Of a DNA stretch of 6,044 nucleotides, positions 1 through 2,283 are shown one piece after another. The notes below the pieces were generated by a model. That model was given only the letters and a program-made list of their open reading frames with translations, ran no database searches and was not told where the DNA came from. Made by a program: the position numbers and the translations under genes. Location of the stretch: the NCBI GenBank assembly GCA_021789095.1, contig JAJYJX010000138.1, forward strand, positions 1 to 6,044, read 5' to 3'. Every line of letters starts with the position of its first letter. Position 1 is the stretch's first letter. Source of the stretch: a bacterium (lineage in GTDB: Bacteria > JAMCPX01).

Positions 1-258
1 AAGATTTTGCATGGGAAGACGGAGATCGATGTTCTTGGTTTTCTCTTCAAACAGTGCTTCGAGCACGGCAAGGTACAGGTCTTCCTTGCTCTTGAAAATG
101 TAGTAGATCAAAGCCTTGTTCACTCCGGCCTTGGCGGCAATAATGTCAACCCTTGCGCCTGGCAGACCGTGCTTGGCGAATTCTCGGGCCGCCGCATCCA
201 GTATGCGCGTTTTAGTTCTGTTTAAATCCCGTCGGTTTGTGGCATTTTTTTTCTTCAC
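1..258 (-). CDS. TetR/AcrR-family transcriptional regulator, N-terminal part (runs off the left edge)
   Basis: The 86 visible residues hold a TetR-type DNA-binding domain. A basic N-terminus (VKKKNATNRRDLNRTK) leads into helix 1 (RILDAAAREFAKHG, residues 19-31), then helices 2-3 with the recognition helix (VDIIAAKAGVNKALIYYIFKSKEDLYLAV, about 38-65). The small-aromatic stretch IYYIFKSKEDLY is the family hallmark. The ligand-binding C-terminal domain lies outside the window. The GTG at 258 is chosen because an in-frame TGA lies two codons upstream and any later start would cut into the DNA-binding domain. An AGGGAG ribosome binding site (269-274) precedes it by 10 nt. It is the last visible gene in a minus-strand series with acyl-CoA dehydrogenase remnants. 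TetR regulators of acyl-CoA metabolism are common in such operons, so a fatty- or aromatic-acyl-CoA ligand is inferred, not seen. The palindrome at 1850-1869 is its candidate operator. Confidence 0.9.
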   Translation of the reverse strand, partial: MKKKNATNRRDLNRTKTRILDAAAREFAKHGLPGARVDIIAAKAGVNKALIYYIFKSKEDLYLAVLEALFEEKTKNIDLRLPMQNL

Positions 259-338: not shown

Positions 339-1142
339 TTATTTATAACAAAACGGGCAGTTGTCCTCTACCCCAAGTTCATGCTGACATATCCTATTAA
401 GAATTTGCAACTCTTTCGCCAATGCCCCGGCTGACAAATGATCCTTGATTATGCAGCCAAGAATATCTTCGACTGCAAGATTTGCTGTACTAAGTGTTGC
501 CGGCAATGGAATTTCCCTCTTGCCGACATATAAATAATGTCCGGAAAAGGTAACCGGACTATCGATTCCACCATTCAATATCTGAATTAACGCTTCCACA
601 TCTTCCAGACCAAGAAAGGTCAACCGGGACATGAGGAACCCCGAGCCTGAAATCAATGGAATACTATTTTTATGCTGTCTCAATTTCCTGAAAAACCGGA
701 TTTTCCGGAATCGTAATGCCATAAATCCGATATCCGACAGCACGTTGGCGGGGATGGTTAAATAATAGAGAATTTTTTTGAAAGGGGATTTGGCGGATTT
801 TTTATGCGGGAAACAACAGTCATTGGACCCTGTAGCCAGCGACCCGGCGAAATCCATGCCTTCTCCGGAAACCCCATGTACTGCCTGCGAGGGAACCTTT
901 TGAGCTTCGGGCAGAATCAGCCTCTCGGCCTCTCGATAGACCAGCCCGCCTTTGCGAACCAGTATGAAGTAGGCCAGCACGGCAAATAGCAGGAATCCTA
1001 TTATCCAGCTTAAGTAGGCATTGACCAGTATTTTGTTTATTCCGCGGATAATGAGACTTGCAGCGATGGCAGAGCCAAGGCCGTAAATAATTATAAGGCG
1101 AAATTGGAGGACTTTCCTTCGTGGAGGTTCTGAAGAGCCCAT
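339..1142 (-). CDS. Unrecognised membrane protein with two N-terminal transmembrane helices
   Basis: I do not recognise this 267-residue protein. A basic N-terminus (PPRRK) is followed by two hydrophobic segments, about residues 16-32 (LIIIYGLGSAIAASLII) and 44-62 (LSWIIGFLLFAVLAYFILV). This suggests a hairpin in the cytoplasmic membrane with both ends inside. The remainder (about 200 residues) looks soluble, with a basic patch FRKIRFFRKLR near residues 146-156, an acidic/hydrophobic helical stretch (LEDVEALIQILNGG) and a short Cys pair near the C-terminus (NCPFCYK) that could bind a metal or be redox-active. The ATG at 1142 overlaps the dehydrogenase-like fragment at 1091-1204 in another frame and has only a poor ribosome binding site, so the true start, or even the original N-terminus, may have been altered by a deletion. 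Expression is uncertain. It lies 80 bp upstream of the TetR gene on the same strand. It could be a genuine gene of the old operon or an ORF retained by chance in decaying DNA. Confidence 0.55.
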   Translation of the reverse strand: MGSSEPPRRKVLQFRLIIIYGLGSAIAASLIIRGINKILVNAYLSWIIGFLLFAVLAYFILVRKGGLVYREAERLILPEAQKVPSQAVHGVSGEGMDFAGSLATGSNDCCFPHKKSAKSPFKKILYYLTIPANVLSDIGFMALRFRKIRFFRKLRQHKNSIPLISGSGFLMSRLTFLGLEDVEALIQILNGGIDSPVTFSGHYLYVGKREIPLPATLSTANLAVEDILGCIIKDHLSAGALAKELQILNRICQHELGVEDNCPFCYK

Positions 1143-1204
1143 GCCCCATACCTGGCTGCGGTCTCGGCAAACAAGGATATCTCTTCGGTCTCATACCATT
1201 CCAT
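1091..1204 (-). pseudogene. Truncated start of a possible second acyl-CoA dehydrogenase
   Basis: Two bases after the stop of the preceding dehydrogenase remnant, an ATG at 1204 follows a strong GGAGGGGG ribosome binding site at 8 nt spacing, a classic coupled operon junction. The reading frame gives 37 residues beginning MEWYETEEISLFAETAARY and ends in TAA at 1091-1093. Openings of the form TEE-x-x-x-F-x-x-T-A/V-R-x-F are typical of the first helix of acyl-CoA dehydrogenases, a family of about 380 residues. Tandem dehydrogenase genes are common in acyl-CoA degradation operons. After about residue 20 the resemblance stops and the DNA becomes the 5' part of the membrane-protein ORF in another frame, which suggests a deletion junction near 1140. 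Family assignment from so short a piece is tentative. It could instead be a short leader peptide. Confidence 0.45.
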
Positions 1205-1206
1205 GT

Positions 1207-1808
1207 TTAATACCCCCTCCAGGTTCTTGCCTGGTCTTTGAAATGGGTAATCCGGTTGGCCTGATTGGTACCCTCATAAATCATGGTGAGCTTGGCGTCG
1301 CGGTATGACTTTTCCACGGGCCCCGGATGTATTTCTCCAAGATGTAGGGATCAATAGATAACAGTCCGCAAGAGAGACCTGCCGAATGGACACCTATGGC
1401 GCTCGCAACTCCGGCACATCCAACTGCTATTTCTTCTACCCTAGCCGCCATGAGCAACACGCCCCCGCCAACACCCTCGAATGCCTCCGGTATAATCAAC
1501 GAGAAAAAACGGTATTTGCATGCATCTTTCATCAGGTCCCATGCAAAGTAAGAGTGATCCAGTTTAACCCTTTGATCAATTTCCACGGCCCGCGGCCGCA
1601 CATATTTATCTGTGAACTCCCTCGCCCGACTCCTCACCTCCTGAAGCTGCCGGAAGTAGGTTGCAGGAAATCGCCGGGCGACCCTGAAAGAATTGTCAAT
1701 CTCTTCCCAAGAGAACGGAAAATCCGAATAAGCGGACTTCGTCTCCCTGACCGGGAGAATATCATCAAAGATCGTCGTTGGTTCATGTTTAACTGCTTCT
1801 TGTTCCAT
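1207..1808 (-). pseudogene. Acyl-CoA dehydrogenase remnant with out-of-frame internal deletion
   Basis: The N-terminal part reads from ATG 1808 for about 165 residues: a helical dehydrogenase N-domain (YFRQLQEVRSRAREFTDKYVRPRAVEIDQ), then FFSLIIPEAFEGVGGG, matching the family's L-x-x-P-E-x-x-G-G-x-G pattern, then VEEIAVGCAGVASAIGVHSAGL. After LEKYIRG this frame yields nonsense and stops at TGA 1281-1283. In another frame, 1317-1207 encodes VEKSYRDAKLTMIYEGTNQ and on to TAA. That is the C-terminal hallmark of the family (x-Y-R-D-A-K-x-x-x-I-Y-E-G-T-N), normally some 200 or more residues further on. The FAD-binding beta-barrel and the usual catalytic glutamate region are therefore missing, and the junction (about 1318-1330) is out of frame. 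Intact enzymes are FAD-dependent alpha,beta-dehydrogenases that pass electrons to electron-transfer flavoprotein. This one cannot be active. The start at 1808 has a weak AGAAGAG ribosome binding site (1814-1820). Confidence 0.88.
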
Positions 1809-1849: not shown

Positions 1850-1869
1850 TTAACTAACTGGTTAGTTAA
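1850..1869. promoter_or_regulatory. 20-bp palindromic operator, probable TetR-family site
   Basis: TTAACTAACTGGTTAGTTAA pairs at 18 of 20 positions (nine of ten base pairs; only the central T/G fails). Palindromes of this size are the usual targets of TetR-family dimers. It covers the -10 element and the predicted start point of the promoter serving the dehydrogenase remnant, where bound protein would block transcription. The TetR gene at the left edge is the obvious candidate partner, but that pairing is inference. The site lies about 90 bp upstream of the SMR transporter start, so it could also affect the divergent gene. Confidence 0.72.
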
Positions 1870-1959: not shown

Positions 1960-2283
1960 ATGTACTGGATTTATTTAATCTTAGCGATTCTCTTTGAGGT
2001 CTCAGGCACTACAAATATGAAGCTGTCCTCTGGGTTCACGAAAGTCCTGCCAACCGTGCTGATGTTTCTTTTTTATGCATTAAGCTTTACCGCAATGACC
2101 TTCGCAATAAAGAAGATTGATGTGGGCGTCGCCTATGCAATATGGTCAGGCCTTGGGACCACACTTATAGCAATAATAGGCATTGTATGGTTTAAAGAAC
2201 CCGCTGCTGGAATAAAGCTGATCTCAATCGGGTTGATCATAATAGGAGTGGTTGGCTTAAATCTCAGCGGAGGAACGCATTGA
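1960..2283 (+). CDS. Small multidrug resistance (SMR) family efflux transporter
   Basis: A 107-residue protein with four hydrophobic helices (about residues 2-20, 30-48, 57-76, 84-103), the exact size and plan of the SMR family, whose members work as antiparallel dimers in the cytoplasmic membrane and exchange protons for small cationic compounds. The essential membrane glutamate is present as Glu13 in LFEVSGTTNMK, and the helix-3 signature YAIWSGLG supplies Tyr59 and Trp62, matching EmrE Tyr60 and Trp63. Tyr39 matches EmrE Tyr40. The G-T-T-x-M-K sequence after the glutamate and the WSG motif resemble the Qac/EmrE drug-exporter branch more than the SugE/Gdx guanidinium branch (usually W-A-I-G-L-K and WTG), but the substrate cannot be settled by eye. 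It is a single gene, convergent with the glycosyltransferase (55-bp gap) and divergent from the dehydrogenase remnant. It looks intact. Confidence 0.93.
   Translation: MYWIYLILAILFEVSGTTNMKLSSGFTKVLPTVLMFLFYALSFTAMTFAIKKIDVGVAYAIWSGLGTTLIAIIGIVWFKEPAAGIKLISIGLIIIGVVGLNLSGGTH

Follow-up and report, generated by a model that had tools for sequence, protein, structure and literature searches.

A probable deletion pseudogene of an acyl-CoA dehydrogenase in a putatively TetR-controlled operon

The locus studied here raises the question of how an acyl-CoA dehydrogenase (ACAD) gene came to have both of its ends recognisable while its middle is missing relative to intact homologues. The stretch analysed (hereafter the window) is an entire contig of 6,044 bp (C76) from a draft genome of 203 contigs, 2.15 Mb and 92% completeness. 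We consider it likely that the gene is a pseudogene that arose through a single out-of-frame deletion, in an operon that is redundant and specific to its lineage. The features on which this reading draws are as follows.

1..258, minus strand: regulator of the TetR family, truncated where the contig ends (PF00440, E 1.6e-15)
339..1142, minus strand: open reading frame of a 267-aa membrane protein, downstream of the ACAD and in the same orientation; no Pfam family over the cut-off
1142..1204, minus strand: possible stub of a companion ACAD, MEWYETEEISLFAETAARYGA, 21 codons (63 nt); weak, placed by its position as in relatives
1207..1317, minus strand: C-terminal fragment of the broken ACAD gene, VEKSYRDAKLTMIYEGTNQANR...RGY, in a frame different from that of the N-terminal part, with YEGTN kept and TAA at 1209-1207 (C-terminal homology)
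1281..1325, minus strand: junction and out-of-frame tail of the N-terminal reading frame, RGPWKSHTATPSSP, with its stop at 1283-1281 (translation)
1318..1325, minus strand: probable deletion junction, CGGGGCCC, 8 nt, with about 900 bp missing (homology limits on either side)
1326..1808, minus strand: N-terminal ACAD part, 161 codons, MEQEAV...ILEKYI, uninterrupted (PF02771 and homology to full-length ACADs)
1850..1869, no strand assigned: TTAACTAACTGGTTAGTTAA, a perfect palindrome of 20 bp that lies upstream of the broken gene (sequence)

Two ends of a dehydrogenase gene

The original prediction placed both ends of an ACAD within 600 bp, and domain matches (PF02771), homology and scores above those of shuffled sequences show that these ends are real and lie where it had put them, on the minus strand. 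The N-terminal alpha-helical domain is present, with residues 56-144 of the N-terminal piece matching positions 5-88 of the 113 in Acyl-CoA_dh_N (PF02771, E 5.1e-14). This piece is 37-42% identical to full-length ACADs (E about 1e-24), and it scores 234 against one relative, compared with at most 52 in 500 shuffles. The C-terminal piece, which begins PVEKSYRDAKLTMIYEGTNQANR... and encodes the last 36 residues of an ACAD, shows 60-82% identity with these proteins at their C-termini (E about 1e-9), scoring 101 where shuffles reached at most 43. Aligning both pieces to full-length ACADs had been suggested as a check, and the same proteins do match both ends. The catalytic glutamate block near the C-terminus is also present, though in another frame than the N-terminal part: Glu376 of MCAD, the catalytic residue, aligns with the glutamate of the YEGTN motif in the tail.

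Scanning with an alignment of full-length relatives was effective; the N-terminal piece alone, used as query in a first scan of the genome contigs, had found none. No match at E 1e-24 or better appeared among the 386 genomes searched. The best homologue was only about 42% identical and there was no close relative, and the deletion is therefore not seen against an intact orthologue. ACADs of uncultured Deltaproteobacteria and Actinomycetota (e.g., L037 from RBG_13_61_14, L045, L047 and L040) resemble both pieces in sequence, with identities of 37-42% for the N-terminal and about 64-77% for the C-terminal one, and in several of these loci the next start codon stands at the same place as in the window. 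Those proteins are full-length (about 460-515 aa among the relatives), and their gene often comes first in a tandem pair, whereas the window gene lacks about 303 residues and changes frame.

Junction and extent of the loss

Homology to the relatives ends at codon ATC (1328-1326) on the N-terminal side and resumes at codon GTG (1317-1315) on the C-terminal side, which places the breakpoint within CGGGGCCC (1325-1318). The alignments thus agree with the single internal deletion that had been proposed, with a junction near 1318-1330, and narrow the interval to 1318-1325. The two parts are, as predicted, one reading frame apart: the N-terminal frame meets a stop at 1281-1283 after 14 junction or aberrant residues, the C-terminal piece ends on the TAA at 1209-1207, and a single continuous reading frame is absent. 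An imperfect 16-nt direct repeat (1580-1595 versus 1311-1326, identical at 14 of 16 positions) has one copy at the junction. Its two-copy match is probably due to chance, and we did not use it as junction evidence.

The loss itself is larger than first proposed. When both pieces were projected onto 29 full-length relatives, a median of 303 residues lay between them (298-307 when only the thirteen loci most similar to the N-terminal piece are taken), corresponding to about 900 bp after subtraction of the 8-nt junction. The earlier estimate of about 200 residues, or 600-700 bp, was too small, partly because, compared with standard ACADs, the C-terminal half of this subfamily contains an additional segment; in the relative L037, about 60 residues separate two stretches matched to solved structures, which have about 8 there. 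Missing from the window are the last stretch of the N-domain, the beta-domain and the greater part of the C-terminal domain, and with them the body that binds FAD and substrate. The original description of a deleted "catalytic middle" is therefore right as regards the beta-domain, where FAD and substrate bind, and the bulk of the C-domain, but not as regards the catalytic glutamate, which the tail retains. Of 90 strongly conserved family columns, 58 are missing and 32 are still covered, 28 of the latter unchanged. With hardly any decay in what remains, the event should be recent, or else an artefact.

Deletion, misassembly or fusion

We infer that the deletion is a feature of the organism and not of the assembly, that it was a single event and that its product is inactive. 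The contrary view, in which the organism has an intact gene whose ends were misjoined in the contig, for example because of mixed strains, scaffolding or gap closing, appears unlikely. It is favoured by the fragmented state of the draft, in which the window is one 6-kb contig among 203, and the near absence of decay in the remaining pieces would fit an intact gene as well. However, any repeat deduced at the junction would have a length of at most about 8 nt, which would not be enough for an ordinary k-mer join, and the sequences of relatives beside the breakpoints likewise give no sign of shared sequence exceeding the 8-nt junction. The assembly also offers no close match to the missing middle beside these ends and no second copy of the flanks. 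Neither 1000-2000 nor the junction occurs a second time elsewhere in it, making a collapsed repeat less likely. Finally, the GC content of the left half (0.47) is normal for this genome, whose sampled contigs range from 0.42 to 0.49.

Given that many relatives encode a second ACAD directly after the first (at offsets of -11 to +25 nt) and that the genome has many paralogues, the two pieces might also stem from two genes, for example the N-terminal one from the first of a pair and the C-terminal one from the second or from a paralogue, joined by deletion or recombination. We consider such an origin very improbable. The second ACADs of relatives never carry the YEGT motif, while the first ones and the C-terminal piece do; an ATG stands 2 nt past the stop of this piece, as it does after the first gene in relatives; and none of the genome's paralogues matches at the DNA level. 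The fit of the C-terminal piece to this subfamily (scores of 81-105) is no worse than its fit to the genome's other ACADs, for which the best scores were 91, then 81 and 65. This same-subfamily fit, together with the position of the ATG, is what would be expected of one gene rather than two joined ones.

Tandem pairs were observed at L031, L033, L040, L041, L043, L045, L047, L049, L069, L070 and L102, in uncultured Deltaproteobacteria, Actinomycetota and others, with YEGTN in the first gene and not in the second. Sixteen PF00441 matches lie elsewhere in the genome assembly, indicating that ACADs are redundant in this organism. Another ACAD of the same subfamily is found at L133 (contig C118 of the same genome, 1-1179, minus strand), cut by the contig start, in an operon (TetR, epimerase, ACAD) resembling that of the relative G001. 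We considered whether the C-terminal piece could belong to this contig-edge ACAD and rejected this, as C118 ends well before the C-terminal block; the operon on it corresponds to another one (L015 type), and it is not the source of the piece.

The deletion pseudogene that we favour probably arose as follows. A probably TetR-controlled operon would once have started with a full-length ACAD of about 465-500 residues, resembling those whose genes, in relatives, often stand first in a tandem ACAD pair. A single loss of about 900 bp would then have joined the codon for Ile161 to a codon 36 residues before the stop and shifted the frame, leaving between the joined codons 8 nt that could stem from either side. 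Translation would now yield a 175-residue N-domain stub. It would have neither the beta-domain, which binds FAD and acyl-CoA, nor the helical bundle of the C-terminus, and is not expected to form an active tetramer. The loss looks recent, and was presumably tolerated thanks to the many other ACADs of this genome. A literature search for a matching ACAD deletion pseudogene returned nothing relevant.

That the 175-residue product is instead maintained as a functional truncated protein, acting as a regulator or partner, seems to us scarcely credible, even though its reading frame is open and the upstream region with its operator-like palindrome is intact. The last 14 residues are junction and out-of-frame sequence without homology, and no such short form occurred among the relatives found. 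In addition, an ACAD N-domain alone has neither cofactor nor substrate sites.

The operon and its relatives

The left half of the window, read on the minus strand, consists of the upstream region with the palindrome, the broken ACAD, the 267-aa membrane protein and the contig-cut TetR gene. The palindrome TTAACTAACTGGTTAGTTAA sits between the broken ACAD and a divergent gene of the small multidrug resistance (SMR) type, and is found nowhere else in the genome when up to 3 mismatches are allowed; it is probably the operator of the TetR regulator at 1-258. The SMR-type gene (1960-2283, plus strand), which diverges from the broken operon, is intact. Residues 15-94 of the membrane protein match a small ORF (35% identity, E about 1e-9; L177, about 5915-6157) in the deltaproteobacterial genome G047, and the protein thus appears genuine near its N-terminus. 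The same deltaproteobacterium also carries relatives of the ACAD.

The right half, in turn, is a conserved chromosomal block of genes for a glycosyltransferase, DciA, a 251-aa protein and a DUF3426 zinc-ribbon protein, followed by 5S rRNA and the 3' end of 23S rRNA. In a same-locus comparison, other genes adjoin the glycosyltransferase-DciA block in five comparable relatives of the family, so the operon occupies a variable place.

No second ACAD survives in the window, except perhaps as a stub. From the ATG at 1204, placed as in relatives, the frame reads MEWYETEEISLFAETAARYGA up to the start of the membrane protein at 1142; this resembles the beginning of an ACAD, with weak statistical support. 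Its mean similarity was reached by 20 of 1500 shuffles, 1142..1204 had no Pfam or NCBIfam match, and full-length second ACADs used as queries against 1-1300 found no remnant above noise. If this is truly a stub, the second ACAD has been lost as well. It is conceivable, though we think it quite unlikely, that both subunits of a heteromeric ACAD pair were lost through two nearby deletions (one of about 900 bp, the other of nearly all of the second gene) while regulator, operator and membrane protein were kept; the TetR-controlled membrane protein would then have a role independent of the dehydrogenase.

A parallel to the tandem pairs of the relatives exists in steroid degradation, where the ACADs ChsE4/5 and Scd1AB are alpha2-beta2 heterotetramers encoded by adjacent genes, only one subunit having the catalytic glutamate (PMC8399759). 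The relatives of the window gene likewise form adjacent pairs in which only the first member has the catalytic glutamate motif. They differ from the steroid enzymes in being known here from sequence alone, and the window copy is broken.

The locus resembles ordinary bacterial internal-deletion pseudogenes, in which the ends are kept, the middle is lost, the frame is shifted and the gene content is redundant; no difference from these is evident. Unless the assembly is wrong, this is an ordinary event of little significance beyond correct annotation, and metabolic reconstructions of this lineage should not list the locus among its functional ACADs. The widespread tandem pairs among its relatives nevertheless suggest that heteromeric ACADs may extend beyond the known steroid degraders.
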